A DNA stretch of 64,000 nt. Source: Dacryopinax spathularia (taxonomy: Eukaryota; Basidiomycota; Dacrymycetes; Dacrymycetales; Dacrymycetaceae). A model generated the notes under the pieces. The model had not been told where the DNA came from and ran no database searches. It saw only the letters and a list, made by a program, of their open reading frames with translations. The translations under genes and the position numbers were made by a program. How positions within the stretch are numbered: position 1 is the stretch's first letter; the number at the start of each line of letters is the position of its first letter. Positions 27,991-64,000 of the stretch are shown one piece after another. The stretch covers positions 1,550,001-1,614,000 of the forward strand of contig JBBPFI010000002.1 of the NCBI GenBank assembly GCA_037974965.1, written 5' to 3'.

Positions 27991-28432
27991 CGCTGAAGAC
28001 GACGTCGACGAGGAGAGGAGAACGAAAGGAGAGAAGTGAAGAGATGGAGGAGGGGGAGAGGAGAGTATATGCGCCTTGGCTGTTGTCGGTTGGGCGCTCT
28101 GCTCTCTTTCTCTCTCCAAAGTGGCTCACGGGACGTTTCGTTTCTTCACAGTCGACAAATTCACCGTTCAACCTTTTGCTCCCGCTTAGGCTTCTCTGAC
28201 TCCGCTTCACCGCCACTAACGGTCCAAAGCTTCCGTTTTTGGAAGCTCGCTCGAGCCGACCCTGAGTAAACCGGTGCTGTACAGTTCCAAACTTCCCTTT
28301 CTCGCCGCCTTGCTACCCTGACATTCCAAGCTCACTCACAAGCCCGTCGTCGCCGGCAACCGACCCATCCTCATCTTCCTCGACCTCGCCCTCCTTATAT
28401 CCCCTCCTTCTCCCCTCGCTTTACTAACCAAA
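27991..28432. promoter_or_regulatory. Shared upstream region of CBF5 and RPL22
   Basis: A perfect inverted repeat, AGCTTCC (28228-28234) and GGAAGCT (28241-28247) around GTTTTT, lies mid-way between the two start codons. The proximal RPL22 part (28321-28432) is pyrimidine-rich and is the only part shared with the decayed RPL22 copy at 58 kb. Confidence 0.6.
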
Positions 28433-28976
28433 ATGGTACGCCCGCTTTGCTGAGTTCCCTTCTCAGTAGGCTGAGGCTCCATTCTTTTCTCCGTTCTCGT
28501 GTGATCTTCTAGCCCAAGGCAGTCAAGCCCGTTGCGTCCAAGCACAAGTTCGTCATCGACTACTCCAAGCCAGCTGGGGACGGTGTCTTCGATGGCGCGC
28601 TGTACGAGAAGTTCCTCCGTGACCGCATAAAGGTCGACGGCAAGCCTGGTCAGCTGGGCGAGAACGTCAAGATTACCAAGGAGGGTGCGTCCACTTTCTC
28701 CTCCTTTCTCATAAGCCTTGTTGTTGACCGCGCGCGTAGGCTCGAACAAGCTCGCCGTCCAGGCCAACATCCCCTTCTCCAAGCGCTACCTCAAGTACCT
28801 CACCAAGAAGTTCCTGAAGAAGAACCAGCTGCGCGACTGGATCCGGTGCGTTCCCTATCCTTCCCTTCACCGCATGCATGTCTGCTGACATTTTGTCAAG
28901 CGTCGTCGCTACCGAGAAGGACAGGTACGAGCTGCGGTTCTACAACATCGCCGAGGACGCGGAGGACGAGGAGTAG
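28433..28976 (+). CDS. RPL22: 60S ribosomal protein eL22
   Basis: Structural protein of the large ribosomal subunit. Exon 1 is the start codon alone (28433-28435, then GTACGC); exon 2 begins at 28513 and the protein reads [21 protein letters not shown], then [36 protein letters not shown] and KNQLRDWIR, ending in the acidic tail [10 protein letters not shown], all typical of eL22. Four exons, all joints in frame; stop at 28974-28976. It sits head-to-head with CBF5. A second copy at 58001-58547 is a pseudogene, so this is the working copy in the window. Confidence 0.97.
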
Positions 28977-30022
28977 ATTAGTCGTCGTTGCTAGTCTGCG
29001 TTGGTCGTCGTCGTCCGTTGTCGTTGGGATGTCTGTCTGTCAGTCTTGGGGGTCGTGCTCGCCCATGAGGGCCGCACTCGCACTTGTACGCTACGCATTG
29101 AATGGATCATGGTCTAATGCAATTACGCCAAGTGCTTCCTCACCTTCTGCCGTTCGTGTCGTATGGGTGTCTTTGTCGCTTCCGCCTTCGTCCATTCGTA
29201 CCCCGAAACGCAGTCGTCGGTCCGCACATGAATAGGAACACATTCACCCTCCGCCCAGATCGGATCGGAGGGCGCTGCCACAACCCACATCCCACAATTA
29301 CTGTAAGATTAGTTAGCCTGGCGGGCGCTGCCACCTCCTGAGCGGCTGCGCACCTTACAATAGTCTTTACGTGTTAGCGGCTGCGCGACTTAGATACACC
29401 GTAATGGTATTGCTGAGCGGCTTATTGGATCTAAAGCGATTCTAATGCGGCGATCAGCACATGTAACTTGTAAGAAGTAGATATTGATAGTGTCGTTGCC
29501 ATCGCCGTCGTCATCGCCGAGCTATCCGATCCAAAGATCTGTTAATGATAAGGAATCGTTTTTGTGTGTTTCATCGGTCGATATGCATTCGAGAGTAGTA
29601 TAAAGCAGTCGCTGCATCGCTAGCATGTACGAAAGTTGTACTTACCTTATTTGTGCACCTCAGCTGAGCGATATATGGGACGACAAGAATATGAGACAAT
29701 GGCCATGCAATGAGGTTGCACGACCTCGTTGTGTGTGCTTCATTTCATTCTTCATTGTTTTTGGACTTTACAGGTGTAAGAGCACAACAGGAATGGGACA
29801 AGGGGAAAGCAGCAGTACAACCAGCCAGACAAGGAAAAGGGAAAGGAACAGCAAGTGCTGTGGCTGATGGTGTTGATGGGTGTGCGTGGTGATTGAGCAG
29901 ACCCATCGCAACAAAAGTTTGCCCTGTTTTGAGCGCTTGTTAGTGATCGAAATAAATCCTTGGGGGGATACTACTCACTTTGTTTGGTATTACGGCAGCT
30001 CAATTTCTTCTCGAGTGTATCG
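28977..30022. other. Intergenic region with repeated GC-rich 19-mers
   Basis: Lies between RPL22 and the HSP20-like gene and is homologous to 56909-58000 in inverted order. It contains spaced copies of a motif that reads TAAGTCGCGCAGCCGCTAA on the minus strand (29377-29395), with related sequence at about 29338-29357 and 29424-29436. No protein-coding gene was recognised. Confidence 0.6.
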
Positions 30023-30366
30023 CTAGGTGCTGGATGTGGCCGGGAGGGTTGCATCAGGCATCGCAGGTGCGAATACCGTTAGCAGGGTGGCACCCCGGTT
30101 GATGGTCGCATTGGCCTTCTTACGGTCTGCTCCTGGGGGAAAGGTTATCCTAAATAACCTATCTGCGGAAAATATTAATGTTGGTTGATAGAGTGAGAAA
30201 GCGAATGACACTTACTGAAGCCACCACGGTCAAAGCACTGAGCGACAACGATGTCATCGCCCTCGATAACAGTGGGCCAAAAGGGGTTCTGGTAGATGCC
30301 ATCATTGGGATCCAGCTCGATCAGGCACGTGAAGCAAGAACCAGTCCAAGATGCGGTATAAGACAT
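30023..30366 (-). CDS. Small HSP20/alpha-crystallin-like protein (left copy)
   Basis: Small protein of 96-97 residues, two exons (30366-30216, 30162-30023) with a GT-AG intron. The N-terminal half (SYTASWTGSCFTCLIELD) is beta-rich. The C-terminal half, LFRITFPPGADRKKANATI followed by ATLLTVFAPA, resembles the strand pattern of HSP20 or CS-domain proteins (x-F-x-L/F-P, then K-A-x-x, then G-x-L-T-V-x-x-P). That assignment is tentative. A TATATAAA box (minus strand; 30488-30495) is about 120 nt upstream and is kept in the right copy. The paralogue at 56552-56908 is only about half identical in protein, although nearby intergenic DNA is far more alike. Both copies look whole. Confidence 0.68.
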
Positions 30367-31465
30367 CGTGCGATCAAGAGGGTCGGTGCAGTTGGGCGGG
30401 CGGCAGCGAGTGCAGCAGGAGTAAGAACAGCTAGCGGCGAGCGATTGCGAGCAGGTGTTGGCAGGTATGTTTAGCGATTCGAGCGAGTTTATATAGACCT
30501 ATGCTCCTCCATTGCTGTAAGAGTTGCGCATATTCGGCGGAGGTTGAACAGGTAGCCAGGAGAGCCGGTCAAAGTGCCGGACCCGCTCTCCGTAAGAAAC
30601 AGTCACAGCGAATGAATGTAAGAAAGCAAGAGAAGTTCCCAGGCACGACAATGCGGCGAGCTGTCAGAGAGCAGACATGGGTGCTGAATTATTTCGGCAC
30701 AGGGGCTGCTCTGCGGTTCGCATCCGGAACCCGTCCACCTGACTTGCCAGATCCTGAATTGCGCGCGGGACGCAAGGCAACTTCCAACTTCATTCAGCCT
30801 AAGAAGCAGTAAAGGCGGCACAATGACAGATTTGTAGCCAGCTCATCAACTGGGCGGCGTTCAGCTTGCGTCAGCTGGTGTGCAATGCAAGGGTGTGGGA
30901 AAACCAGTTGCGCTATCAATTCAGTCATGAGAGAACGGCAGTTGCCTAACGCCGCACCTGAAGTGTGATACTGCCAAAGACAGAAATTACGGGAAGCACT
31001 GCGGTGCATGATGTTCCGAGGAGAATGAACTACAAGCCTCCATATCATTGTCTCACTCACACCAAATCGGGACGTTCCGGCTTGATATCGGCCCTTCCAT
31101 CGCTCCGCACCGTGCGGGAGAACGTGCACCGCGGTAGTCTAAACAAAAGGGTCTGTGCTGCTGGCAGCACCTCGACAGTGCGATATTCTAGCGGGAAGCA
31201 TGTCGGAGTGATAATGACGAGTTCAGGTGATCATGCCATCTGCAGCCATCGATCATCGCCTCCGGACTCCCCACAGTCTACAGATACTCTTCCATTGTTC
31301 GAGGAGGTTGTTAACAATGCCCGCAGATACAAGGTGCCGTTTGATTAAGGTCCAACTCAGTCAAGGCTGTAAGCTCATAATCATGCATTGTGCGGAACAA
31401 CAGTTGTAGTAAGACGGGACAAAACGCGTGTCAGAATACAAAGGACGAGTAAGGAAGAATATTGG
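30367..31465. other. Intergenic region strongly conserved in the inverted copy
   Basis: Part of this stretch (about 30940-31465) is nearly identical by eye to 55375-55890 on the other strand, more so than the adjacent HSP20-like genes. No convincing open frame is shared between the two copies. The promoter and leader of the HSP20-like gene occupy the left end. Confidence 0.6.
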
Positions 31466-34140
31466 TTAATTCACGGAAGCTTCTGGGAAATCATTGGGGT
31501 TACTAGTGTCAGGGGTAATCTGGCCGGTATTGAATGACACATCAACGAGCGGCACGCGGTCCGATCGGCTGATGGGTGCGATCGATATCTTCGCCGGGAT
31601 CGTTCCGCCGGTGGGGAGTGGGGAATCAGCGTCTGCATAGGACACCTCTGCGGGGGGGACGATGGGCCGGCTATTGTTGCTCTTGCGCTTCTTGTGCCCC
31701 TGGGCGGCACGGGCGGCGGGTGAGCCCTTTGCATACTCGAGCGTTATCGCGGTAATGGAGCCGAATACGTCTCGCTTGAGAGTCGGAATTGCGTGGTTTT
31801 CGCTGTCGTCCGCCTCATCCACAGTCGCTGTTCGGTTGCGCTTCAGCTTGGCCGCAGGGGCCAGGAACGAGGGGGGTGGGGCGGCTTTGAAATTCCCTCC
31901 GGCTCGGGCGGCACGTTCCCGCTTGGGACTGGAGTGGCTTCCCTTGTTCCAGCACACTCTGTACTTCGTCGATCCTGCATGTGGCCTGCAATAACTTAGG
32001 GCCATCTCCCAATCAAGATCAGATCGTTTACGTACCGCACCTGGAGCTGTAAGAAGCTCCAGGTGCGGTACGTAACGGAGCGGGCGCCGATAGGACTCGA
32101 GAGACTTGTCAAGATAGCCCTTGGATATATCAAGTAATTTGCTAAGTCCGACATCCCAACGACTTGAATGAATGGAAGGAAATGGGTGGAGACGTACTGG
32201 TCTTGCGCGGCACGGGCCAGGGCTACGAGGGCCTGTGCGACCTTCTTGTTCCCATCCGGGGACAAGATCTCGCTCACGCTGTGTTCTTCCCCTGTCCGGC
32301 GCTCGTCAGCGCCGCACTATGACACGCCGTTCACTCGTCAGCAGACTGTTTGGTATCGCAAGGGTATGTGAAATGGGACGCACTTGATTCGCTCCAGCTC
32401 GTCGACCTTGGCACGGAGGAGACACACTTCCGTCCGCTTCGCCTCGAACACCGCCTTCTCCCCCTCCCGCTCGAGCTCCCGTTCCGCCCTCTCGCGCTCC
32501 AACTGGTGGACGATCCGGCCCACTTCCTGCTCGACGGACTCTTTGATCCGGTGCTCGATCATTTCCTCCCGCTCTTCGTCTTCGTTTTGCGGCCCAAGCT
32601 GTCGGATGGGCGCGAGAGTAGGAACGTGCGGTGGGCAGAATGACCCTGAGATACCCGGAAGGCCCGACGGACGCCTTCGTTGTCCGACCGGCGGCCGAGC
32701 GGTAGGTGCTGGGGGAGTGGGGAGCATGGATGTGCGAGGGTGACGTGGTTGGGCCAGTTTGGAGCCTTGGGTAGAAGGAGGCGTAGGGAGCATGCTCATT
32801 CGGGGTCGGGGCAGCTCTGAGTAGCGGAGCTCTGTGAACCCCCCCCTCGTCAGTTCGGGAATGCGGCGACGCCCCACTATAGGACGGTGGTACTCACGAT
32901 GCCCTCCTCCCTCAATCGCCTTCATCGTCGCCGCAGTCCTCACAGGCCGATTCTCCAACTCCAAGTTCAACGTATTCAGCTTATCCTTGCCGACCCTTGC
33001 CCAGGAGCCACATTGCATATCGACAAACTCATCTCGTTCCCGCGCAGGAAAGGTTGCAGGATCCGACTGGGCTTGACATCTCTGTACGGGACACGGGAGA
33101 GGTTGCGGTTGAGCGCATCGACTACTTGCCGCAGGACGGAGAAGGCACACTTGATGGCGCTGGACTCGGCCATCCGGGAGGGGTCGTTCCCCGTGAGTTT
33201 GTTGTTCTCGCTGCTGCCGAGGTCGATGGGGTTGATCTTGCCTTCCGTTGCTACCTCTTGGTCAGTCATGAGCAGGAAGAGATATACGAAGGTAGGTACG
33301 TACTGCTTACATCCTTGCGGGTGAGCCTGATGCGAATCGCCAGAATCGCATGCGAGCGAGATGAAGCGCGATTGAGCAACGTCGCACCTGTCGACCGACT
33401 CCCACAAGCAAGACTCAACAGCTGCTCAATTTGCTGAATCGTCTTAAACGGCGTCTATTGTCACCCCTGTACCTTAGCTCTTTCCTCCCGTAGCATGCAC
33501 GATCGCTTACCTCAGTAAGGTTGGCAAGGAAGATCGCCCCTTCGGCTTCCCTCAGCCGTAGCTTGGGCCTCCGCCTGCTGAACAAGTAGGCCGTACGCCT
33601 CACCTTTGTATATCTCCACATAGCTTATGAACCCTTGTACGCCAGAATGGTGTTCTCCATGCCCCAGCTAGAGGAAATGGCCTACGACGCGCGGGGATGT
33701 TTCCGGGGTCGGGGGAAGAGCCGTGCCTGGTGTGGGTTTTGCCGGAGGAGGCGATGCCGTAGCAGGAGATTCAGGCGACCCGGCCTTCCTCGTCAGCGAG
33801 CAGGTGAGACGGAGGAGGGAGGGAGGACGTACCTAGCCCAGGAGGACTCGCTCGAGGTAGGCCTCACGTCCCGGTCAAATATCACCTCTTACGTGTGCGT
33901 ATCGTCGCAACATCCCCTCGACCAGCAACCCACAAGATCAAGAAGCGGCAGTAAGGAAACCGAAACCTCTCCTGGCATCTCTGGGGTCCGTAACACTCAC
34001 GAACGCTTGTCCCCCTGGCTGAGAATCATGTTGCTCCACTCCACGACACTATAACACTGCTTCCACTGGGCATGCCACAGTCCTGCGGAACGACTCGTAT
34101 CTTCCACAAGATAGCAGAATCTAGCCGCCGATGGTTTGGA
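31466..34140 (-). pseudogene. Decayed kinesin gene (left copy)
   Basis: Host gene copy matching the intact kinesin at 52633-55374. The tail is well preserved ([15 protein letters not shown], then [20 protein letters not shown], ending NDFPEASVN). The motor is damaged: the P-loop region reads as a GIASSGKTHTRHG-like sequence in a broken frame, switch II is PIDLGSSE instead of LIDLAGSE, and PYRDVKPSRILQPFL replaces [15 protein letters not shown]. The exon before the final one has become a perfect hairpin (32028-32075). The region just upstream of the presumed start does not match the SOS7-shared promoter of the intact copy. This is very likely non-functional. Confidence 0.85.
32028..32075. repeat. 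Perfect 21-bp inverted repeat with 6-nt loop
   Basis: TTACGTACCGCACCTGGAGC plus T (32028-32048) and its exact reverse complement (32055-32075) flank the loop GTAAGA. It sits at an exon of the decayed kinesin. In the intact copy the same place (about 54769-54808) is only a weak palindrome with outer arms of nine bases. Confidence 0.95.
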
Positions 34141-34294
34141 CATCATCTCAAACTTCTAAGCACAATATATTAGTCCGACTCTATCAGAATAATAGTCCTC
34201 AACCCGCCGATCCGTTGTACATACGAGAAAAGTCCATATCGAACGCAACTCATCGACATCGTCCATCGGCGCCGCATCCCCTCACCTCATCAAC

Positions 34295-36380
34295 TCAGCT
34301 GAGCTTCTGCTTCTTTGCAGCGAGCGACCAGAGGAAACCAGGCACGCAGAAGACAGTCGTGGCGACCATCATCATCCTGAACGCTTGGCCGTAGGACTGT
34401 GCAGCGACTGCTTGTACGTCCGCAGGTAGGGAGGGGATGTTGTCGGCTTGGAGAAGCTGGGTGACATACTAGATCATAGCACAGCAGCATATGTTAGCGA
34501 CAGTCGGATTCAGACGGAGAAAGGGCGCGTACTGGGGCAGAATTGGAGTCCGCTAAGATGCCGCGCTTGAAGATGTTACTGATGATGCTGCCTTGCATCG
34601 CCGCACTCAGAATATTGCCCAGGCGTCGACTCCAGAGTGTCATAGTAGTAACAGTCGCAATGAGGTCCTTGCTGACCTCGCTCTGCGCGCTCAAGGTGAT
34701 AGTCTGCATCAGGAATCCCGCACCGACGCCGCTGAAGAAGAGGAGTACGTATTCGGCCGCACGAGGGTATTGCCCGTTCATGAGCGTGAGGAGGGCCGTT
34801 CCGGCTAGGTTAATCAGCCCGCCGAGCCAGAGCCAACCACGGACGTTGCCGGTCTTGGAGATCCACCAGCCGCTGGCAGTGGAGACAAGTAAGACGGGAA
34901 TGGCGCTGTATACCATATCAGACCTGACCGCCTATCAAGAGATGGATCCGTACTATGGCAGGATGTCGAGCCCAGACACAATCTGCGAGTCCTTTCGTAC
35001 GATCTGATAATACGATGGGAGGTAGAGGAACAAGCCTTGAAGCGAGCTATTTCCGGGTGTAAGCCAACTATACGTACGCAGGTAAGAGACAGGACTCACA
35101 CACTGGAGAAGAAATTGTTCGCCACGCCGGCTGTCACATTCCTGTACTTGAACATATCCATCGGAATGAGCGGGAGCGGGGCGACCTTCACCTCCCAGTA
35201 CACGAATGCCGGAATGAGGACGAAGCCGACAACCATGAGGGCGATGATGAGCGGGCTATTCCAGGCGTATACGACGCCGCCCCAGTTGAACGCTAGTGCA
35301 AGGGCGACGGTGAATGCGGCTACAAGGCAGATCCCGCCTGCGTCTACGTCTCGCCAGGAGACATCGGGTTTGGTGCGGTGCGGGAGCTTGCGAGCAAAGG
35401 CGAGGAGGATCCCCACTGCGGGGACGGCGATGATGAGGTTTATCCAGAAGCACCAGCGCCAGTCCCACTGCACGAGGCCGCCGCCGATCAGCTGCAAGAT
35501 ATTGGTCAGCACTCAGCGCGCGGAACAGACGTGGGAAGGTGAACGGCTTACAGGACCAAAGACGGTGGAGACCACCAGGCGCGCATACATGATCCCCATG
35601 TATCGTCCTCGCTCGCGAAGGGGAACGATCTGGCTAACGATGACCATTATCACCACGGTCAAGCCGCCCGAGCCCATCCCCGCGACCGCGCGAGCACAAC
35701 ACAGCCAGACAAAGTTCTGCGCGACGGCGCATAGCAGACTTCCGAGTTCAAACAGCAACACGCTGGCGAATAGAACGATACGTGAGCCGAATAAGTCTGT
35801 CGCTCGGCCGAAGAGAGGCTGGAAGACGGTCGAGGTGAGCAGGTAGGCGAGCGCAATCCATTGTTGTTGCGATAGGTTGTTGAACTGCGATGCGATGGTT
35901 GGCATGGCCGTGACGATGATGGAGCCATCGAGAGAGGACAGGAAGCCCGTCACCGAAAGTCTGCCATGTCTATCAGTCATGTTCCCTGCTAAAGGGTGAA
36001 AGTAGGTCGACCCACGACATGAAGGTGAGCTGCAGCTCGAGCTTGCTCATAGGAGGCACATCCTCTCGCTCTCTGGTTCCTCCATCTTCAGCTCGAGCGG
36101 CCTGCTCTTGGGGCTCTTCATGCTGTCGTGTAGGAGGGGACTCTGGTTGGTTCTCGTTCGACCTTGCGCCCGCTTGGAGTGTCTGCGTGGTACTGGCCCG
36201 ACTCCCCACAGCTTGTAACGCATGTTCTTCCCCTTGTCTGCTTGAAGTCGAGGTGCTCGACAGAGCCCGTGTCGAGAATCCAGCAGCAGGAGCAGGAGCG
36301 CTCGACTCCCTCCCAGTGGCAGTCGCTCGCGAGCCAGGCGTATGTCGGCCCAAAAACAGCCTACGCAGCTCGAAGTTCAT
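34295..36380 (-). CDS. MFS drug:H+ antiporter-like transporter (second intact paralogue)
   Basis: Paralogue of the transporter at 536-2527 with the same intron positions. The start at 36380 gives MNFELRRLFLGRHTPG and a longer, Ser/Glu-rich cytosolic N-terminus of about 110 residues. TM1 is GFLSSLDGSIIVTAMP; motif A is GRATDLFGSR; motif C-like VFGPLIGGGL and WDWRWCFWIN follow. The protein ends FLWSLAAKKQKLS, stop at 34297-34295. All joints are in frame, e.g. donor GTGGGT after FMS and donor GTGAGT after NNFFSSV. A 16-bp palindrome with a TGACGTCA core lies 185 bp upstream. Two decayed relatives exist at 42.4-44.2 and 59.6-60.5 kb. Substrate is unknown. Confidence 0.9.
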
Positions 36381-44170: not shown

Positions 44171-44573
44171 TATGTACGACCGGCGATCGCGGGATGCTAC
44201 TGTCAGATTGATCGTGTCGATTTGACATACAAAAGTATCTAGACGTTTACGATGCGCATCAATCGAGCAGGTGGCAGTGGGCCGTAGTTTTACGTGGAAG
44301 ACGCCAGGCCTTTTGCCTTTTTACGGCGCCAAGCGGAAGCAATTTGACGTGTTCGTGGAGTCTCTCCCCTGGAAGGCGCAGGCGCCGTGCACTGAACTAC
44401 TGCCATTATTCTTCTCCTCCATCTCTGTAGTCTTGGGTGCAGCCGTCTCCTGTGCCATTCTCTTGCGGCCTCTACGTTGTTTGACTGCCCCTGGATACCG
44501 ATCTAGGACCTGCACATCCTCTCCTAGTCCAATTGGAATTTGAAGAAGTACCTGTCTGACGACGAACATTAAC
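44171..44573. other. Promoter region of first F-box gene (copy A)
   Basis: Matches about 60550-60938 in copy B. No gene was recognised. Confidence 0.5.
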
Positions 44574-45737: not shown

Positions 45738-46413
45738 GTGAATGAACCATTACAGCTTTCGGACTTCCTTGTGCACCGTAGGTCCCGCCGCACACCTAAA
45801 TGCGTGTGCCGTCGTCCTGAATGATGATAGCATGTCTTCCCGTCCGACTTCCAAGCTGGACCAACGTTGCTTGATTGTCTAGATTAGGACGCGGGCTTGG
45901 CCCAGCGGTGTTTACAAAAAAGGTCGGAAGTCGCCGGTCATTGATGATGACCAGATGACTGGTTGAGACATGCCAACATAGCAGTCTTCGAAATCCTGGC
46001 CGGTTCTTTCCCTGTAACCATTCGTCCGCCCCAAATGCGTACAGATGCATATTCCTCCCGAAATCTACAACCGCGCCCAGCTGGAAAAGGGGCCGTCGTC
46101 ATAGACACCGGGTTAGATTTTGTTAGCAGCAGGATGAGTCATGGCGGGGGCAATGCACTTGTCTTCCTGTGTCGCGACGACGCATCCAGCTTCCCCTTCG
46201 AACCATTCGTCACACTCTTTTCGTTCACTTCGAACTTGTATTCAGGTCTGCGTCGCAAGCAGACAAGTACGAAGGAGCTGACCAGAGTAGCTTGTATCTT
46301 CACATTCTCTTTTCGACCGAATCGACTCGGCAATACGGTCCCCCGGCCATCCAAAGGGGCCCCGTACGTTCGAAACGCCGTGGGTTGTGTACGAAAATTG
46401 CAGCAAGAGAAGC
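45738..46413. other. Intergenic region between the two F-box genes (copy A)
   Basis: Aligns in patches with 62088-62676 of copy B. No shared intact open frame was seen. Confidence 0.5.
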
Positions 46414-47716
46414 ATGGTAAGCCGGACCTGCTCAAAATGCTAAGAAAGGGTCATAGTTTCGTTAGATGGCATCAACCGGCCCTATGATCCCAGTTGAGAT
46501 CTACCTTGAGATAATCGGGTACATCAAGACACCGAAGGACCTGCTATCGATCGCTCTGGTTAACCGGACGCTCCATAATCTGGCTCTTCCCCTTCTCTAT
46601 CGTAACCTCGGCAAATTTTACCTTAATCCTAAGTATATGGTCTCACTGCTACAGCGACTCGAGCACAATGAGCAGCTCGCCCGGGCCGTGCGGTCTCTTC
46701 GATGCGTCGTGCCTAATAATTCCACCCACAGGTTGGCGTTCCGGCCTCATATTCTCCACCTTGCCCTTTCCGCTACCGTGAACCTGTCTGCACTGGAGAT
46801 CGCCGTAGGAGCTGGAATCCCCTGGGATACGTTATGTAGTTGTCCATTTCGGCTACGCGAGCTCAAGTTGTCATGGGCGGAACATGATGGCCGCGGCCTC
46901 CTTCGATTCTTGGAGACGCAAGACTCGCTTATCCGGCTGGAGCTACAGAAAGGAACCGCTAATATCCATCCAACTAAACCTATCCTCCCAAACTTGCGTC
47001 AATTTCGTGGTCGTACAAGGACGGCGAAGCAACTATGGTCGCATTCCAAGTCTCGCCTCCCGGACGAGATGTACATCACCGATAGCGTGGGCATGGAGGC
47101 TTTGGACTGGCTCGCGGGTCACCCGACGGAGCAACCCATATCCCTTTATATCGAAGATCCGCAACTCTCCGACATGCAGTTTTGGACTGAGCAGGAATGC
47201 AAGTGTGTGGAGTCCCTGGTCATCTTCTTTAGCGAGTTGCAAGAACGGGTTAGTGCGAACGCCAGGGTTACAGCTTCCTCGTTTGTCGCTCACATCCCAT
47301 TCTGCCAGACATTCATGGCCTCTCGCTGTCGCGTCCCGCTAGCGAGCTTCAAGAACCTACGTACGCTCATGTTTAAGGGGCTTCTCTGGCCTAGGGAGTA
47401 TGAACCCCACGGAGAGGCGGGCTTCAGTCGGGCGAAGGCGTTTTACCTCTATGCGGTCCGCGAGATGTGGGAGGACTGCCCGTCCCTCGAACAAGCCTCC
47501 TTTCCCAAGCGCGCAGACCGCGACTGGGTGTTCTATAGGACAGGCGATCAGTGGCCCTTGTGCTGGTTTGTGAACGAGCGACGTTACTGGCCCGCAGAGG
47601 ACGAACAGCTTGAGAATGAGGAGTTTCGCCGTGGCGCAAGGTTTCCTCCGCACCCGTACAAATCGTTCTTCATCGTGGGCTATGATAGATTCGGCATTGA
47701 TCCGTATGCTGACTAG
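46414..47716 (+). CDS. F-box/leucine-rich protein 2 (copy A)
   Basis: Second F-box gene of the pair. An ATG-only exon (46414-46416, GTAAGC donor) is followed by exon 2 from 46466, which itself starts with ATG (MASTGPMIPVEIYLEIIGYI), so the first exon is inferred from copy B. The F-box continues DLLSIALVNRTLHNLALPLL. Leucine-rich units include LSALEIAVGAGIPWDTL, FRLRELKLSW and LPNLRQFRG. An intron at 47249-47308 (60 nt) corresponds to the obligatory intron of copy B but is stop-free here. The C-terminus (HPYKSFFIVGYDRFGIDPYA) is highly conserved in copy B. The frame is intact. Confidence 0.8.
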
Positions 47717-48689
47717 TAGCGCTGGATCCTGGTTGCTTAGGCTCGTATTGTAGTATGCATAATGCAGCCCTCTTTCGTATTTGTCCGCAATTACCCAAGA
47801 CGGTTTCCTCCGCTAGGAAAAGCACCATTTCCTGGGAACATGGATATCAGAGCGGATGATGCGCTGTCGAGTTCTCCATCCTAGGTATAAAGCCAATCAT
47901 CTCCAATCGAGGACGACACAAACCGAGAACACCGAGAGATAAAGCCAAAATTCGAACTCAACGGCTTCTGTAGGTAGCGCAGCATGTTGACGGCGAATAG
48001 GACGAGAATGACGACCGCGCGCATGAGTCGGTAGAACAGTGAGGGTTTCAATCTTGGGCAGTGTTGTTTCTGCTGTCGATCCAGAATCGCCAACTCCTAC
48101 CACTGAAAGCCGACACATAGCCTTCCATGAGCTGAAAAACAAAAGTGGTGTTTCAGTAGTCTAAGTAGATAGAAGAAAGGCTGGCTCACAGGATAGGGAT
48201 TCAAATCATGCAAACCCGGATCACACGTACATGATGCCCCATTCACTTAGATTCCCGTTTCGATCTGGGAAGTACGTTCGGCTGTGCCTCAGGGTTGGAC
48301 GGTTGACACAAGGTAGTCCTCGTGCTTCGACGACTCTGGTAGACCGGGAGCACAGAAAGCCCAGGCAAAGCTCAAGTTCGTCGTCGCCGCTCCAGGAGGC
48401 TACCGAGCTTAAATCTGAATATCAGGCTGTAGAGGGGCTGGGGCTGCCAAAAAGATCCGTCTTTTGCCCGAAAAAGAGGTCTGAAGATCGTCGGAGATTC
48501 AAAGTGAGTGGATAGGGCAGCATAAATCCCAAGTCGTGGATTTCTGATGAGAGCTGAAATTGAAGTCGATACTGCAAGGCGAAGGTAGGCGTGAGTTCGT
48601 AGTATGTTGATATGGAGATAAGAAGGCAGGGAGCCTGTTGCTGGATCAGCGGTATGATACTGAGTAAGATAGGCATAGACGGACCAGGT

Positions 48690-49636: not shown

Positions 49637-49699
49637 ATGCTCTCCTCGCCTCTCACGCACACACTCTCGCCGCTGTCGCTCTCTTCAAACTTGTACTAG
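49637..49699 (+). promoter_or_regulatory. Upstream open reading frame before MAPEG gene
   Basis: A 20-codon frame (MLSSPLTHTLSPLSLSSNLY, then TAG) ends nine bases before the MAPEG start at 49709. Its ATG is preceded by ACA, an acceptable context. Whether it is in the mRNA depends on the transcription start. Confidence 0.55.
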
Positions 49700-49708
49700 G
49701 GTAGAACG

Positions 49709-50526: not shown

Positions 50527-50768
50527 ATCGCCGACGTTGTGGAGGTTGGAGAACCTGTGGACTTGGTTGGCAGAGGGAAATGCGAGAGGATGTAGAATAG
50601 GTTGTACCGTACCAAAATGTATGCACCATCTTGCTCCTCTACGCCGGCAAAAGGCGTTGGTGTATGTATCGCGCAATACATGTCATTATACAATACAACC
50701 AGTCCTACCCTCACTCATCCAAAACGCCCAAACGTATCTTACACCCCCTCGCACCTGCGCTCAACAGT

Positions 50769-52310
50769 CTACGCCCGACTCCGAAGGACCGCCAGGACTC
50801 GCCTGACCAAGTAGGGCACGTCGTTCCCCGCTACGGCTAGGTCGACCGCTTCCGAGAGGTCGAGCTTCTCTTCCAGTACCTATGGGTAGCCGTATCAGCA
50901 TCAGCACACTTACAACGCTCATACACCCGTCCGTCCGACAGTCCATCCACCCGGGCCCAGCAGCCCAGCAGCCCTAGCTCGCCGGAGCAGGAGCAGGAGC
51001 AGGAGCGGGGGTAGGAGCAGAGGTAGGAGCAGGAAGAGAGAAAACGTACCCTCGCGTCGCCCAGCCTCCCCGTACCGGGCTCGAAGATCAGACAGAGCGT
51101 CCTGTCCCCCCTCGGGGTGGTGTAAACTACGCGGAGCTCGTTTTCCGTGTGTGCTGTTAGGGATGTGATGCCCATTAGGTCTTTGTATCCTGCGATGGCG
51201 TTCGTATACCTGAGAGGGCGGTCAGTGTCCGTACATGCACACATGTGGCGGAGCAGCGACGGCCCGGGTCAGAGGTGGGAGGAGTGGGACGAGTGCTCCA
51301 GAAAGAAGAGAGAGCAGTGGGAAACGCGCAGAGGAATGGGAGAAGGATGAAAAGCCGTTAGTGGAAGAAAGACGCACCATGAAACGAGCCTTTCGACGCT
51401 CCCGTCCCTCCCCTCGCTCGCCCGCTTCGCCTCCATCAGCCTCGCCTCCGCATTGATCCTCTCCACCTCCACCCTCTCCAGTTCCTTCCCCTTCGCCTGC
51501 AACACCGCTTTCTTCTGGCTCAACCCCTGCGTCCGGGTATGCAGTTCCCCTGTCAGAGCCTGCAGCGTCTCGACCTGCTCGTCCAATATCTGCGTAGCGC
51601 GAGAGATGGTCATCCTTGACTCGGGCGGGTGCTGGGCGCGCAGGCGGGCGAGCTCCAGCTCCATCTCGCGCACTTCTTTGGCGAGTTGGAGGGCGGTGGC
51701 TGCGTCTGCTGAGGCTTGGGCGTGGGCGGACTCGACTTGAGGTGCGAGGGTGCGCAGTTGGGAGATGGAGGATTCTAGTGCGAGCTTGGAGGTCTTGAGG
51801 GATGTCTTGAGGGCCGTGTTGGATTGTTCTGCTCTATCATCAGCTAGCTGTTCGTCCGGGGAGCATGATGAGAGAAAAGGACAAAAGCAGAGCAAGGGGG
51901 CGGAGGCAAGAGAAGGGACGAGTGGAGAGGAGGGACGCACCAAGCTGCAAATTATGCGCCGCCCTCAAACTCGGCGGGTCTTCCCTCAAGATATACCTCA
52001 AGAACCTCTCCTTGCTCTCCTGCTCCAGGTACTTGAACTTGATCTTCGTAAAGTAGTCCTTATGGTCCGCTACATCCCTGTCGATCAGGCTTGGGTTGAG
52101 CGGCTGGAGGGAGATGAGCGAGTCGGAGAGGGTGGGTAGGTCGGAGGTGGCGCGTTCGAGGTAGGAGGCGTGTAGCGCTGTGAGGTGTAGTTGGTGGTCG
52201 GTGTATTCTTGCGCGAGTCTGTCATTGTCTTTAGCATCTATCATAACGCATACGAAATAGCAGGTGCACTTCTTGATACCATCCAAATCAAGTTCGCTCG
52301 TCGAAGCCAT
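50769..52310 (-). CDS. SOS7: Kinetochore protein Sos7 (KNL1-binding coiled coil)
   Basis: Fungal Sos7/Kre28 partners KNL1 (Spc105) at the outer kinetochore. The start at 52310 gives MASTSELDLDDAKDNDRLAQ after removal of a 42-nt intron. The signature block follows: LHASYLERATSDLPTLSDSL, then DHKDYFTKIKFKYLEQESKE and RFLRYILREDPPSL. A long coiled coil comes next (ALKTSLKTSKLALESSISQL ... EVREMELELARLRAQ ... KELERVEVERINAEARLMEA). A C-terminal RWD-like part carries YTNAIAGYKDLMGITSL and CLIFEPGTGRLGDARV. The gene ends at 50769. It is head-to-head with the intact kinesin, pairing two genes likely to act in mitosis. Confidence 0.8.
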
Positions 52311-52317
52311 TACAGAA

Positions 52318-52348
<31 letters not shown>

Positions 52349-52632
52349 AAACGCAAGTACACCTCCCGCGCCGCGTCACGCGCATTGCTTTCTCAATCAC
52401 GTGACCCCTTCCCCGCGTCGTCCACCCAACCCGTGAAGGCGCGTCCAAGTTCCTCCGCCAAAGTTCACATTCCGGCAATCGGTGTCTCATTCATCGATCA
52501 ACCAGTGGGCTTTGTATTCTGAAACATTGGCTTGAAGGTGGGCTTTGACGATATTCCCCTTCACTTCGACAAGTACTCTGCATACACTTTCGTTTTATAC
52601 CTCTTTGGCAATATATCACAATCAACAGCAAC
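52311..52632. promoter_or_regulatory. Divergent promoter SOS7 / kinesin, with TCG repeat and E-box
   Basis: A TCG microsatellite of eight units lies at 52322-52347 and a TCACGTGA palindrome at 52398-52405. The region is not part of the inverted duplication, so the decayed kinesin copy lacks it. Confidence 0.6.
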
Positions 52633-55374
52633 ATGACGACACATACGACGACGGCCAAGGTCAACCTCTCCATCCGATGCAGGCCGTTCCTGCCACATGA
52701 AGAGCAGGACGATACTGTCCGCGTTCATCGACACGATTCTCAGCTGGATGGGGAGGGGGAGGGGCAGGGGGCGTTCGTGAGCGTTACGAACCCCAGGGAT
52801 ACCCGGGAGAGGTTCAGGTTTCCGTACGTCCGATTCATACACCTGTTCGAGGGACTGAGCGAGGGGTCGGGTTGCTAATGCGGGATGCAGGTTCAGGAGC
52901 TGCTGGGATGAGACAAGCACGCAGGAAGCCATCTTTGATCGTGACGTTCGTCCCATTCTGGAGCAAGTCCTGCTCGGCTACGTACGTCCTTTCCCTGCCC
53001 TCTCGCTTCTGCTCGCTCATGACCACCGACAGAACGCCTGCATATTCTGCTACGGCGTCACCTCCTCCGGTAAAACCCACACCATGCAAGGCTCTCCCTC
53101 CGCACCCGGGATAATCCCCCGCGTCGTGCGCTACTTCCTCTATGCGGGACATGGAGAAGGCACAGCCGGCGTGCACGTCTCCATTAGCTATATGGAGATA
53201 TACAAAGATGAGGTGTATGACTTGCTTGTCCAGCGGGCTGAGGCTCCTAAGCTGCCGGTGAGGGAAGCGGGAGGGGAGATCTTTGTGGCTAACTTGACTG
53301 AGGTCAGTCGCCTTCTTAAGTCTGAAGGGGTGGAGCTGACCTGGAGCGGGTAGACTCCGGTTAAGACGATTCAGCAGTTTGAGGAGATTTTTAGCGTTGC
53401 TTGTGGGAGTCGGTCGACCGGTGCGACGTTGCTTAACCGGGCTTCGTCAAGATCGCATGCGATCCTGGCTATCCGGGTCAGACTCACTCGTACAGATGGG
53501 AGCAGTACGTCCTCCCCTCGTATTCTCACTAGTCCAGGACGTGCTGACCCATAGGCAGCAACCGAAGGCAAGATCAACCTCATAGACCTCGCCGGCTCAG
53601 AAAACAACAAACTAACAGGCAACGACCCCTCCCGTATGGCCGAGTCCAGCGCCATCAACAGATCCCTCTCCGTCCTCGGCCAAGTAGTCGACGCGCTCAA
53701 CCGCAACCTCTCCCGCGTCCCATACAGGGACAGCAAGCTCACTCGGATCTTGCAGCCTTTCCTGGGTGGAAGTGGGATGAGCTTGTTGATATGCAATATC
53801 GCTCCTGGAGCCAAGTTCGGCAAGGACACGCTGAATACGCTGAACTTTGCGAATAGGAGCATGGAGGTGGAGAATCGGCCGGTGAGGGCTGCGGCGACCA
53901 TGGCTGAGGGGGCAGTGGGAGGGCATCGTGAGTGCTCCTGCAGTGGGGCGCCGCCGCATTCCAAACTGACGAGCGGGGAAAAACAGAGCGACGCTATTCA
54001 GAGCTCCCCCGACCCCGAACGAGCATGCTCCCTGCCCCACCCTCGACCCTCGCCTCCAAAGTCCCCCAACCGCCTCGTCCCCGCACTTCCATGCTCCCCT
54101 CCGCTCCATCCCTCGGTCCATCAACCACCGCTCGGCCGCCGGTCGGACAGCGAAGGCGTCCGTCCGGCCTTCCGGGTATCTCAGGGTCGTTTTCCGCACC
54201 GCACGTTCCCACCCTCGCGCCCATCCGACAGCTTGGGCCGCAAAACGAAGCCGAAGCCGAAGCCGAAGAACGGGAGGAAATGATCGAGTGCCGGATCAAA
54301 CAGGCCGTCGAGCGGGAAGTGGCCCGGATCGTCCACCAGCTGGAGAGCGAAAGGGCGGAACGGGAGCTCGAGTGGGAGAGGGAGAAGGCGGTGTTGCAGG
54401 CGAAGGTTGCGGAAATGGATGTCCTCCGTGCTAAGGTCGAAGAGCTGGAACGAATCAAGTGCGTCCTGTTACTCATTGTGCGTACCCTGGGCATATTGAA
54501 TAGTATGCTGACCGGGGAACGGTGTGTCACAGTGCGGCACTCATGAGCGCCGGACAGGGGGAAGAACACAGCATGAGCCAAATCTTGTCCCCGGATGGGA
54601 ACAAGAAGGTGGCACAGGCCCTCGTGGCCATGGCCCGCGCCGCCCAGGACAAGTGCGTCTCCACCCCTTTCCTTTCCATTCAGTTCAGCCGTCGGACCTA
54701 ACGAATTACCTCATATATCCAGGGGCCATCTTGACAAGGCACTCGAGTCCTATCGGCGCGCGCTCCGTTACGTACCAGCCAATAGGAAGCTCCAGCTGCG
54801 GTACGTAAACGATCTGATCTTGATCGGGAGATAGCCCTGAGTTATTGCGGCTGCACACAGGATTGAGGAAGTGCAGAGCGCGCTGGAGCAAGGGAAGTCC
54901 TTGCGCGAATTCAAGCGAGAACGTGCCGCCCGAGCCGGAGGGAATTTCAAAGCCGCCCCACCCCCTCCCCCGTTCCTGGCCCCTGCGGCCAAGCTGAAGC
55001 GCAACCGAACAGCGACCGTGAACGAGGGGGACGACAGCGAAAACAACGCACTTCCGACTCTCAAGCGAGACGTATTCGGCTCTATTACCGCGATAACGCT
55101 CGAGTATGCAAAGGGCTCACCCGCCGCCCGCGCCGCCCAGGGGCACAAGAAGCGCAAGAGCAACAATGGCCGGCCCATCGTTCCCCCCGCAGAGGCGTTC
55201 TACGCAGACGCTGATTCCCCACTCCCCACCGGCGGAAAGATCCCGGGCGGGACATCGATCGCACCCATCAGCCGATCACGCCGCGTGCCGCTCGTTGATG
55301 TGTCATTCAATACCGGCCAGATTACCCCTGACACCAGTAACGCCAATGATTTCCCAGAAGCTTCCGTGAATTAA
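52633..55374 (+). CDS. Kinesin motor protein, kinesin-10 (Kid)-like
   Basis: N-terminal motor kinesin, plausibly a chromokinesin. The motor opens [23 protein letters not shown]-binding P-loop: [15 protein letters not shown]. Switch [16 protein letters not shown]. Switch [15 protein letters not shown]. Neck region: [19 protein letters not shown], a pattern closest to kinesin-10. A Pro-rich linker ([14 protein letters not shown]) precedes a coiled coil ([20 protein letters not shown] ... [20 protein letters not shown]). Then comes a TPR-like helix pair ([18 protein letters not shown]) and a basic tail with [12 protein letters not shown], a likely nuclear signal. About ten short introns, all joints in frame; the stop is at 55372-55374. 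It shares its upstream region with SOS7. Subfamily is an inference. Confidence 0.85.
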
Positions 55375-56551
55375 CCAATATTCTTCCTTACTCGTCCTTT
55401 GTATTCTGACACGCGTTTTGTCCCGTCTAACTACAACTGTCGTTCCCGCACAATGCAACGTTATGAACTTTCGACCTTGACGGAGCTAGACCTTAAGTGA
55501 AGCATAAGTAAGATCAGTGGAACATCGTTTACAATCTGTCCGAGACTCCTCGTCGGACGCGGAGCTGGTGATCGATGGTTGTAGATGGAATGATCACCTG
55601 AACGCGCCATTATCACTCCGACATGCTTCCCGCTAGAATATCGCACTGTCGATGCACTGCCGGACCCAGAGACCCTTTTGTTTAGACTACCGCGGTGCAC
55701 GTTCTCCCGCACGATGCGGAGGGATGGAAGGGCCGATATCAAGCCGGACCCTCCCGATTTGGTGCGAGTGAGACAATGATATGGAGGCTTGTAGTTCATT
55801 CTCCTCGGAACATCACGCACCGCATTGCTTCCCGTATTTTCTGTCTTTGGGCACATCACACTGCAGGTGCGGCGTTAGGAGATTGCCGTTCCTTGCACAA
55901 TTGAATTGATAATGCATCTTATTTTCCCACACCCTTCCATCGCGCACCAGCTGACGCAAGCTGAACGTCACCCACTTGGTGAGCTGGCAGCAGTATCTGT
56001 CATCGTGTCGCCTCGCCGCTGCTTCTCGGGCTGAATGAAGTTGGAAGTTCCCCTGCGCCTCGCGCGCAATCCGGGATCTAACAAGTCAGGTGGACGAATT
56101 CCAGGACGCGAAGCGCGCAGGTTAGTCCCTGTGCCGGTTTCTCCTCCCAATCCGACGTCACATCTTTGAGCCATCCGACAACATCTATGGAAAGATATCG
56201 CTTGATCTGCCAAGTAACTTCCCTATCACCTCCGACGGCTTGCCGCATTCTTGTGCCTGGGAACTAAGTTCTCGCTCGCTTTCTTGCATTCATCTCCTAT
56301 GACTGTTTTCTATGGAGAACGGGCCCGGCACTTTGACCGGCACTTCCGGCTGCCGCAACCTGCTATTCAACCTCTGCCATGTACTGGGGGCTCGTCCAGC
56401 GATGGAGGGCTCTGGTCCATATAAACTGGTTCAACCTGTCGATCTCTGCCTGCCCACATCCGCACACATTTGGTCACCGCCCCTGCTGCCATTACTTCGG
56501 TGACTCGGTCTATCTCCGTTGCGCTCACCTCCACAACAAGCTTATCTCGCA
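55375..56551. other. Intergenic region conserved in the inverted copy
   Basis: The first 500 bp match 30940-31465 on the opposite strand almost base for base. A TATAAA box at 56420-56425 lies 127 nt before the HSP20-like start and matches the box of the left copy. No gene was recognised. Confidence 0.6.
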
Positions 56552-56908
56552 ATGGCTACGACCTATAGCGCAGTGTGGGATGGGTCATACTTCACCTGCA
56601 AGATTGCGCTGGATCCTGCCGACAAGGTGTACCCAAATTACCTATACCCTACCGTAAATGGCTATGGCGAGCGTGAAATAATTGCACAGGGGTACGACAT
56701 CAACGGCTATGGCAAGCAACACTCTTTCTCTCATTCTCACCGATCATTGATACTGATACTGCTACCAGATAAGTTGTTCCCGGTGACGTTCCCCGTTGGT
56801 GCCGATCGCAGTCAAGTGAAGGCCATCATCAGCCCCGACAAGACACTGCTGACGGTGTACGCTCCTGCCCTGGCCAATACAAACCTTTCCACCCCATCCA
56901 GCACCTAG
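56552..56908 (+). CDS. Small HSP20/alpha-crystallin-like protein (right copy)
   Basis: Paralogue of the gene at 30023-30366. It starts MATTYSAVWDGSYFTCKIAL and ends LLTVYAPALANTNLSTPSST. The intron at the conserved place (57 nt, about 56712-56768) has a GC donor (GCAAGC) where the left copy has GT. It is also a multiple of three without a stop, so a read-through form 19 residues longer is possible. The protein differs from the left copy at about half its positions, mostly conservatively, and keeps the FPVTFPVGADRSQVKAIIS strand pattern. No domain call is certain. Confidence 0.66.
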   Translation: MATTYSAVWDGSYFTCKIALDPADKVYPNYLYPTVNGYGEREIIAQGYDINGYGKQHSFSHSHRSLILILLPDKLFPVTFPVGADRSQVKAIISPDKTLLTVYAPALANTNLSTPSST

Positions 56909-58000
56909 CGATTCGAGCTCGACAGAGAATTGGGTTTGCCGAATGTGAGTCGTCCATCCCAAGAGATTTTTTTCGGGCCGCTAACGAATCATCGAACGTG
57001 GAAAAGATTTGCAACGACAGGCCTGGGATCTGCAACGATCGGTCTTTCACTCGCTCTCCCTTCTTTCGCTGGTTGTACTGCTCTCTTTTAGTGGTTTGTT
57101 TCTGTTGTTTGCTCAGATGTAAACCTCAGTAGTATAGGAATGGATGAATCGAATTGGTGATGAGGTCGCAAATGCAACCTCATTGCATAGCTGTTGTCTT
57201 TTCCATCCCGTCGTCCCATATACGCTTGGCATAGGTGTCCGAATCGGGAAACAACAACCTTCGGACGTGCATATCTCTTTTTCTTTGAACAACAGCAAGC
57301 GAAGCAGCGATTGTCTTATTTTACTCTCGAACACATTTTGATCGGTACGACACACAAAACAAATTGATTATCATTCGGATCGGACAGCCCGGCGACGACG
57401 ACGGCGATGGCAACGGCGCTATGCACTCCTGTCTCTTACATGTGATGATCGCTGACGTACAATCACTCAGACGCAATAGGCTGCTTGCTGAGATGATCAC
57501 GGTGTATTAAGTCGCGCCGCCGCTAAGATCTAGACTGTATTCCGTATACTAATATGCATGCAGCCGTGAGCACGTATAATCTATTATAAGTCGCGCAGCC
57601 GCTTAGGACGCGGCAGCGCGGGTTGGCTGAGCTGACGTGGTGTGTGTGGCAGCGCCGTCCGATCTCATCTGGGCGGAGGGCAAATGCGTTCGTGTCTGTG
57701 TACGAGCACCGACAACGGTGTTCGGGGTACGAGTTGACGAATGAGGGCACCCTTACGATACGTAATTGCATTAGACCATGATCAATTCAATCGTATAGCG
57801 TACAAGTGCAGGTGCTGCCCTCCCGGGCGAGCACGACCTCATACATAGACAGACGGCATCCGGACGACGAACGACGAACGACGAACGACGAACGACGAAC
57901 GACGAACGACGGCGGCCAACGCAGACTGAGGGCATCCCAACGATGACCACTACCGACGACCGACGAGCACGAACACAGCAGACTAGCAACGACGACGCAT
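56909..58000. other. Intergenic region with GC-rich repeats and a heptamer minisatellite
   Basis: Counterpart of 28977-30022. Two related elements, TTAAGTCGCGCCGCCGCTAA at about 57506-57525 and TAAGTCGCGCAGCCGCTTAG at about 57588-57607, recur with similar spacing in the left copy. GACGAAC is repeated six times at 57866-57907, an expansion missing from the left copy. No gene was seen. Confidence 0.65.
57866..57907 (+). repeat. GACGAAC minisatellite, six perfect units
   Basis: Six perfect head-to-tail heptamers with partial units on each side, in the 3' flank of the decayed RPL22 copy. The matching place in the left copy is a plain GTC-rich stretch. Confidence 0.95.
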
Positions 58001-58547
58001 CTACTCCTCGTCCTCCACATCGTCGGCGATGTTGCAGAACCACAGCTTGCACCGATTCTTCTCGATAGCAACGACGCTAAACAAGATGTCAGCATACATG
58101 TATGCGCTGAAAGGAGGATACGGGACGCACCGGATCCACTCGCCCAGCTGGTTCTTCTTCAGGCATTTCTTGGTCAGGTACTTGAGGAAGCGCTGGAGAA
58201 GGGGATGTTGGTCTGTACCGCGAGCTTGTTGGAGCCTGCGTACGAGGTCAACGACAGGGCCGGACGACGAAGAGCAGAAAGCGGACGCACCCTCCTTGGC
58301 CAGCTTGAGGTTCCCGCCCAGCTAGGCCGGGCTTGCCATCGACCTGTATGCGGCCACTGAGGAACTTCTCGTACAGTGCTGCATGGAAGACACGGTCTCC
58401 GGCCGACTTGGAGTAGTCGATGACGAGCTTGCTTGAACGCGCCAAGCTTGACAGTCTTGGCTAGGAGGTCATACGAACAGCGAGAGAGACAGTTGGAGCG
58501 AGCCCTCGCCCTCCTGAGAAGGGAACTCAGCAAAGCGGGCATGCCAT
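58001..58547 (-). pseudogene. Decayed RPL22 (eL22) copy
   Basis: Matches RPL22 at 28433-28976 including its introns. The start ATG is present, but the donor next to it is GC instead of GT. Three indels break the frame: two bases are missing near the CACAAG/CAAG position after the first 20 codons, one base is extra before GGGCGGGAAC (near 58320) and one base is missing in the TTCTCCA-GCGC segment (near 58190). Substitutions include KK to KC (LTKKCLKKNQLGEW). Only the proximal 110 bp of promoter were copied; the CBF5-side region with the AGCTTCC palindrome is absent. Clearly non-functional for eL22. Confidence 0.9.
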
Positions 58548-59599
58548 TTTGACTAGGAAAGGCGAGCGAGCAGGGGGTTAGATAAGGAGTTGGAGGAGGG
58601 CGAGGAGGATGAGTTGGGTGCCGGCGACGACGGGCTGGTGAGTGAGCTTGGAATGTGGAACTGGCGATTGATGCGGATGCTATTGGTTGTCCCCTCGTTC
58701 GGGACCATCGTTCTTCGAGGAGACACTCCCATACGACACGCTCCCGCATCCTCAATCGCCCAGTTCAACCGATTCCCGGACACAGACCGCACGCAGCTCA
58801 TGCGAATCTCGAACAGCTCATTGTCTCGTCGTCTCAGTTGGTCGCGAACCAATCAGCATTCCGATCACGATCTCAACCTTGCTCTGAGGCACAGAGGACA
58901 CGTGATCGCGTTTCTGGGACGCGTTTGTCTTACAAGGCTGGCGAGCCAAGAGCACCGTCTTTGGGCGCATATACTCGTCTTTCAACCATCATCAACATCG
59001 TCCGTAGTCCCACCTTTCCGGCGATCTCTCGCGACAAATGGACTGTTGCGGGGTAGCGAGTTACTCTTTTTCGATGCTGGCGACGATGAAGTCAAGGGAC
59101 AGCAATGGACGGCATCATGACAGTGGCTTCTGATTGAAGCTGGAGATACCTACGACGACGTTATCCATGAGTCGGTCAGTAAGCACTACCGTTGAGCCGT
59201 ACATAGGCAGACCAAAGCTGACGCCTATATCAGTTCCACCTCCAAGCCCCCTGCTGATAGCCAGGATGCCTTTTCGCCGTACTTACGACCATCTGCAGGA
59301 AGGAACGAGCCTCGTCTCTCAGCCGGCCACGCTCTCCGGACTCGATGCACACCCACTTCGTTCGCAGATACCGATGCGGACGTACCCCCACCGCTGGTAG
59401 TCTTTACTGTCGGATTGCACCCGTGCACATGTAAGCTTCGAGCACGAACAAGAGCATCTGCGATTGAGCCGGCTCCGAGCAAGCTCAAACTGCGGGCTCA
59501 CCGTTCTGTCGTGCTTACAATCGAACTTTCGCCTCAGGACAAATAAGACCTGACTGACGTACTTGGCAGGATCTCAGTACCTCGCTTGCTATGCCCCTC
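58548..59599. other. Junction of the inverted and direct duplications
   Basis: The inverted block ends at about 58662 and the direct duplication copy B begins at about 58770. The roughly 100 bp between them match neither with confidence. No gene was recognised; the segment to 59600 aligns in patches with 41400-42400. Confidence 0.6.
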
Positions 59600-63977: not shown

Positions 63978-64000
63978 TGTTGTATTAGTGTTGGTCAGAC

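Follow-up and report, generated by a model that had tools for sequence, protein, structure and literature searches.

An inverted duplication in Dacryopinax spathularia suggests that one chromosome inversion, and not two separate accidents, decided which copy of RPL22 and of a kinesin-10 gene survived

We analysed a 64,000-nt window of the genome of the fungus Dacryopinax spathularia (contig 2, positions 1,550,001-1,614,000; all coordinates below are positions within the window), in which a block carrying RPL22, a small middle gene and a kinesin-10 gene is present twice. BLASTN comparison of the window with itself showed that 28321-34006 (weakly to 34086) is duplicated in inverse orientation at 58656-52771 (to 52679). 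The left-copy pieces, at 28321-29023, 28981-29624, 30486-30669 and 30695-33934 together with smaller ones, have their partners in inverse order from 58656 to 52771, and the largest of them, 30695-33934 against 56136-52879, is 80.6% identical over 3313 columns (E=0). The gap between the copies is 18.6-18.8 kb, which bears out an earlier reading of the letters alone (the sequence-only reading), according to which a duplicated, inverted RPL22/middle gene/kinesin block lay about 18.5 kb apart. The features are collected in Table 1.

Searches of the whole genome (29,246,034 bases in 24 contigs) with the three proteins, in which scoring was restricted to the best candidates, returned two copies each of RPL22, the middle gene and the KIF22-like kinesin and no others; the remaining kinesin matches were family members of at most 45% identity. 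A mobile-repeat origin of the block was rejected, given that the DNA at 30500-31500 matches just the two block copies genome-wide. Inverted duplicates of otherwise single-copy DNA are thus found at both ends of one segment, as is expected of an inversion with staggered breaks. The closest proteins come from Calocera and Dacryopinax, and the class in which the sequence-only reading proposed to look for relatives, the Agaricomycetes, was the wrong one, Dacryopinax being a Dacrymycete.

As that reading had claimed, the right kinesin is intact, with an open 9-exon, 749-codon model, and the left one is ruined. Among solved structures the motor of the right kinesin is closest to KIF22 (PDB 6nje, E=2.4e-75), several of its protein matches carry the name KIF22, which places it in the Kinesin-10/KIF22 group, and the best match among those listed is from Calocera viscosa (62% identity over 96% of the query). 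The left kinesin carries stop codons, several frameshifts and altered splice sites, and besides this decay it lacks its 5′ end, a feature that had been missed. When amino acid replacements between the copies were polarised by Calocera viscosa, 93 fell on the left copy and 11 on the right, with 54 ambiguous. In this count and in those for RPL22, the decayed copy was read in the frame of the intact copy and gapped codons were skipped.

The situation at RPL22 is the reverse. The left copy is intact, again as claimed (an open 118-codon, 4-exon model), and its best protein match among those listed, from Dacryopinax primogenitus, is 91% identical. The right copy had been described as carrying three frame-breaking indels and a lost GT donor. 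The first GT donor is indeed a GC, but there are four indels (−1, −2, +1 and −1), and because they cancel in pairs, a 117-codon frame with the same three introns reaches the original stop without interruption if splicing uses the GC donor. The Pfam Ribosomal_L22e score is 159 bits for left RPL22 and 81 bits for the right product. With D. primogenitus as the outgroup, 27 replacements fell on the right copy and none on the left (2 ambiguous); with three other outgroups, the counts were 19 to 21 on the right against 0 to 3 on the left, with 7 to 10 ambiguous. Pseudogenisation at the locus is therefore reciprocal, for the right RPL22 by the direction of replacement only. When neutral decay was simulated, 9-14% of the runs with the same indel sizes still had an open RPL22 frame, as did 3-4% of those with four random small indels, so that the open frame, while mildly unexpected under neutral decay, proves neither function nor death; as proof of function, it was rejected. 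GC replaces GT at two donors of the right copy, in the introns at 56712-56768 and 58461-58544, and GC-AG introns may be in use there.

The middle gene is intact in both copies, in agreement with the sequence-only reading; the HSP20-like identity proposed there is not supported. There was no Pfam match at E≤10, none of three candidate proteins reached E≤1 in a homologue search that needs shared short words, and comparison with PDB gave insignificant matches only (best E=0.94, an unrelated enzyme). For want of a sequence match to an HSP20 domain we reject an HSP20 or alpha-crystallin identity, drop the label, and refer to the gene as the orphan. Its two copies share an intron position and 49% protein identity, and over 96 codons they differ at 30, 30 and 57 sites in codon positions 1, 2 and 3. 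Nonsynonymous divergence (dN) is 0.40 and synonymous divergence (dS) about 2.2, which is saturated, making the dN/dS of 0.18 a rough value. The orphan is apparently a real gene, kept under purifying selection as a pair for which no relative was detected; it occupies the most diverged portion of the block.

The edges of the block are where the two decaying genes have something in common. The two copies cease to be homologous at 28321/58656, about 110 bp ahead of the RPL22 ATG, and again near 34086/52679, 46 bp into the kinesin coding sequence; each decaying gene is thus the one that is cut on its 5′ side. Since the upstream stretches match only themselves genome-wide, the left copy holds CBF5 and the promoter side of RPL22 and has no kinesin start, and the right copy holds SOS7 and the promoter side of the kinesin and has lost the RPL22 upstream region. 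Within the block, nine 100-bp windows of the most diverged region gave alignment z values of 4.9 to 13.8, six others gave 6.6 to 15.9, and the weak stretch 34007-34086 gave 5.0. Six anchored comparisons beyond the edges gave z values of −1.3 to 0.8, and no hidden homology was seen in them.

Divergence between the copies (K), computed on noncoding sites and kinesin third positions, ranges from 0.06 to 0.59 within the block. It is 0.28 at RPL22, 0.29 downstream of RPL22 and 0.59 around the orphan, falls to 0.23 and then 0.12 between the orphan and the kinesin, reaches 0.07 at the 3′ end of the kinesin and 0.06 in its tail, and rises again through 0.25 and 0.24 in the later and middle kinesin exons, with 0.42 for exons 4-5 and 0.55 for exons 1-3. 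The lowest and highest window counts of divergence fall outside all 500 permutations, which treat sites as independent, and poor alignment may inflate the maxima. In the 94%-identical kinesin tail (146 codons), the differences number 8, 8 and 9 over the three codon positions; functional constraint on the tail was rejected because of this even spread, and conversion is preferred for the youngest tract. Tracts of significantly lower divergence than constraint would account for are thus present, and the mosaic points to gene conversion between the copies. A short patch of 59% identity (31273-31371, 81 columns, K 0.59) lies within the 89-94% tract.

The same divergence bears on whether the duplication exists at all. 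Diverged haplotypes of a dikaryon might have been wrongly joined in one contig, and the D. spathularia paper, in the part available, reports a heterozygosity of 5.09% and the purging of haplotigs (PMC11066560). At little-constrained sites, however, the divergence of the copies is about 20-40% over most of the block, far above 5% heterozygosity, and comes near 6% only in the kinesin tail and 3′ end. The opposite orientation and the distinct flanks of the copies also speak against such an artefact, as does the foundation of the published assembly, if it is the same one, on 319x HiFi reads and Omni-C (same excerpt of PMC11066560). We regard a misassembly as very improbable.

One possible hypothesis for the arrangement is that offset breaks flanking the block, followed by end joining, made the inverted duplicate and the inversion together in one step, so that the cut genes were dead on arrival. 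This was our initial model; it gives the same map as the one we now prefer and has been described from Drosophila (PMC3355041, in the portion consulted). It predicts that the cut genes were dead from the start, and the kinesin motor codons as a whole do not fit this. In the left kinesin motor, the ratio of position-3 changes to the mean of positions 1 and 2 is 2.43, against 1.5-1.6 expected if the gene had died at duplication, and the observed value was reached by 0 of 150 death-at-duplication simulations at each of two values of omega. The motor codons thus argue for long purifying selection, although exons 1 and 3 alone do not, and the left kinesin was probably not dead on arrival but under purifying selection for a time. 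RPL22 alone (ratio 1.57) and kinesin exons 6-9a alone (1.74) are compatible with early death. A rescue of the one-step scheme would need an alternative start and promoter, and we consider the scheme improbable.

Approximate Bayesian estimates place the time dead per branch at 0.11 (0.06-0.16) substitutions per site for right RPL22 and 0.11 (0.05-0.17) for the left kinesin motor; by part, the left kinesin gave 0.14 (0.04-0.22) for exons 1-3, 0.10 (0.04-0.16) for exons 4-5 and 0.10 (0.06-0.14) for exons 6-9a. The median total divergence per branch was 0.15 to 0.34, and the functional fraction of divergence in the left kinesin motor was 0.64 (0.29-0.87). The estimated death times agree and, with their wide intervals, are compatible with one event after the duplication.

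What could that event have been? If one inversion with ends at 34086/34087 and 58656/58657 is undone, the left kinesin, at its cut 5′ end, comes to adjoin the right RPL22 at its cut upstream end, and the block then stands between CBF5 and SOS7 as two direct tandem copies. Starting from what was observed directly, namely the anatomy, the edges, the mosaic divergence and the polarised decay, we consider a tandem duplication, followed later by one inversion that broke the junction between the copies, to be the best account, with a probability of about one half. A block of RPL22, orphan and kinesin-10 between CBF5 and SOS7 would first have been duplicated, presumably in tandem, and both kinesin copies would have been under purifying selection for a period. 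Later, an inversion, taken here as a single event in this order, would have broken the junction, and the junction stretch would have been lost, and with it the 5′ end of the first kinesin and the DNA that lay upstream of the second RPL22 (presumably including its promoter). The second copy would have been moved with SOS7 beyond an 18.7-kb segment, its order reversed. One break would thus have silenced the left kinesin and, as we suppose, the right RPL22, the survivors staying on their original divergent promoters (CBF5-RPL22 and SOS7-kinesin) and the internal orphan remaining intact in both copies. Parts of the two copies would have been made alike by gene conversion between them, the kinesin tail being the latest. 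A break at the tandem junction and its loss would explain the orientation, the flanks, which gene died where and the agreeing death times. The fuller statement, that a single break at a junction where the 5′ ends of the two genes faced each other killed complementary genes and that the orphan pair was kept as a divergent island amid conversion, we offer more tentatively.

Alternatively, an inverted duplication might have produced full copies, in which kinesin and RPL22 died at unrelated times under relaxed selection. Such independent complementary decay, which the sequence-only reading had in mind, agrees with a left kinesin constrained for part of its history, and both losses look neutral once begun. 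The reciprocal survival that the sequence-only reading pointed out is supported by the polarised replacements (27:0 for RPL22 and 93:11 for the kinesin). However, independent decay leaves unexplained why each decaying gene is cut 5′ by the block edge, and it leaves the agreement of the death times, wide as their intervals are, unexplained as well. It is not the best account, and we think it unlikely.

Several observations weigh against the tandem duplication and single inversion. The wide death-time intervals could accommodate two independent deaths. The position-3 ratios of the motor are uneven, about 1.2, 5.4, 1.7, 4.7 and 1.9 in exons 1 to 5, and exons 1 and 3, with 1.2 and 1.7, would by themselves suggest a gene dead from the outset; the simulation itself assumes one neutral spectrum, equal branch rates, omega values from a fixed range and an ancestor identical with today's intact copy. 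The functional fraction estimated for RPL22, 0.29 (0.01-0.67), does not establish constraint on this gene before the break, and the right RPL22 frame is still open. Left RPL22 and D. primogenitus differ at 11 sites; with 3 set aside because of a gap or a third state, the right copy shares the left state at all 8 that could be scored. Unless the D. primogenitus branch accounts for all of these changes, the two copies of the RPL22 part seem to share an ancestor younger than the split from D. primogenitus, although the kinesin motor part looks older. At the edges, alignment determined the position of the control windows, whereas the edge windows were positioned on the assumption of collinearity, a difference that works in favour of the controls; the kinesin edge, too, could have arisen by deletion after the gene had died. 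There is also a local match outside the RPL22 edge, between 28023-28075 and about 58963-59018. None of 200 plain shuffles attained it, against 3 of 1000 block shuffles and 1 of 81 other stretches of the window, and it could be what is left of a once longer homology, or chance. It contains a 13-base word, GAGTATATGCGCC, that is common to 28063 and 58964, outside the block edges, and occurs nowhere else in the window. Lastly, the ancestral order and the tandem stage are deduced from this one genome.

The ancestral order proposed by the sequence-only reading, CBF5-RPL22-middle gene-kinesin-SOS7, fits the anatomy, because the left copy retains the flank towards CBF5 and the right copy the flank towards SOS7. 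Among Agaricomycetes, the kinesin and RPL22 clusters had different longest contigs in 35 of the 35 species typed from the 120 best matches listed for each, a list that is not exhaustive (Amanita muscaria is also in both, with different assemblies and lengths). Clusters may represent several strains and some contigs are short, which makes the comparison a weak one; tight linkage of kinesin and RPL22 seems not to be conserved outside Dacrymycetes.

Table 1. Features of the duplicated block and its surroundings (window coordinates).
Feature	Position	Strand	Remarks
CBF5/dyskerin-type pseudouridine synthase, divergent neighbour of left RPL22	26292..27990	-	Pfam DKCLD, TruB_N, TruB_C_2, PUA; start codon seen; ends from open reading frames
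CBF5-RPL22 intergenic region	27989..28320		one genome match (itself); not found beside right copy
Left block copy	28321..34086	+	strong to 34006, weak to 34086
RPL22 (eL22), intact	28433..28976	+	4 exons, 118 codons, open model
Orphan gene, left copy	30023..30366	-	2 exons, 96 codons, GT-AG intron
Youngest tract, proposed gene conversion	30961..31900		about 89-94% identity, patch 31273-31371 excepted
Kinesin-10 pseudogene	31466..34086	-	stops, frameshifts; without homology to first 46 bp of coding sequence or promoter side
Left new junction, between cut kinesin and MFS transporter gene	34087..34296		no significant match elsewhere in window
SOS7 kinetochore gene, divergent neighbour of right kinesin	50768..52310	-	Pfam Sos7 1.1e-12, separately 0.0067 (below cut-off); start candidate; ends approximate
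SOS7-kinesin upstream region including first 46 bp of kinesin coding sequence	52400..52678		one genome match (itself); not found beside left copy
Kinesin-10 (KIF22-like), intact model	52633..55374	+	9 exons, GT-AG introns, 749 codons
Right, inverted block copy	52679..58656	-	window self-comparison, edge alignments
Orphan gene, right copy	56552..56908	+	2 exons, 99 codons, GC-AG intron
RPL22, decaying copy	58001..58547	-	4 compensating indels, intron 1 GC donor, about 110 bp upstream homology
Right new junction, between block edge and second, direct duplication	58657..58793		no significant match elsewhere in window

The window contains a second duplication, which is direct and of about 70% identity (41430-47727 and 58794-63985) and carries an MFS-type transporter gene followed by two F-box genes. 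Its right copy starts 138 bp past the right end of the inverted block, and the MFS gene there is eroded. Four related MFS-type transporter genes or remnants lie in the window, at 927-2525, 34297-35982, 42385-44153 and 59548-60548, assigned by Pfam for the gene at 34-36 kb only and by DNA similarity for the other three.

Complementary loss is usually taken as slow, chance decay after duplication. The present locus suggests that the fate of the genes in each copy was settled by one chromosome inversion instead of two separate accidents. If the break did choose the losers, one rearrangement can fix complementary gene loss without slow independent decay, and reciprocal loss near rearrangements would become predictable from the promoter that each copy kept. 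The locus also holds the orphan, a gene for which no relatives were detected and of which two diverged copies have been retained. Nonfunctionalisation, or reciprocal gene loss after duplication, leaves one functional copy per gene, and here too one functional copy each of RPL22 and the kinesin remains; in contrast to the general case, a single local segmental duplication is involved and the losses match the block edges.

The nearest parallels come from Drosophila mojavensis, in which inversions 2h and 2q have inverted duplications at their breakpoints (Guillen and Ruiz 2012, PMC3355041; these comparisons draw on part of that paper). There, in a similar layout, single-copy genes are duplicated inversely at the two ends of an inverted segment; in 2h, one copy seems intact and the other eroded, with one gene surviving, and in 2q, the copied gene is without its first exon and upstream sequence. 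Unlike in 2h and 2q, the decay here is reciprocal and the kinesin codons suggest a working duplicate before the break. For staggered inversions in fungi, a limited literature search listed no paper on the subject, judged by titles and the starts of abstracts. The excerpt of PMC3355041 also reports that 4 of 14 breakpoints lie between pre-existing duplicated genes, among them Hsp68a/Hsp68b of inversion 2r, whose upstream regions are altered. There, as proposed here, duplicates are parted by a break that falls between them and severs regulatory DNA; unlike there, our junction would hold the 5′ sides of two different genes, so that one break would hit both. Interlocus gene conversion with islands of divergence is likewise on record (PMC3924837 and PMC3728101, both in extract). 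The mosaic described here resembles these cases in that the most diverged island lies at a gene pair kept in both copies, and differs from them in that selection against conversion at the orphan pair is putative. The locus is thus a well-preserved, neat case of known processes.

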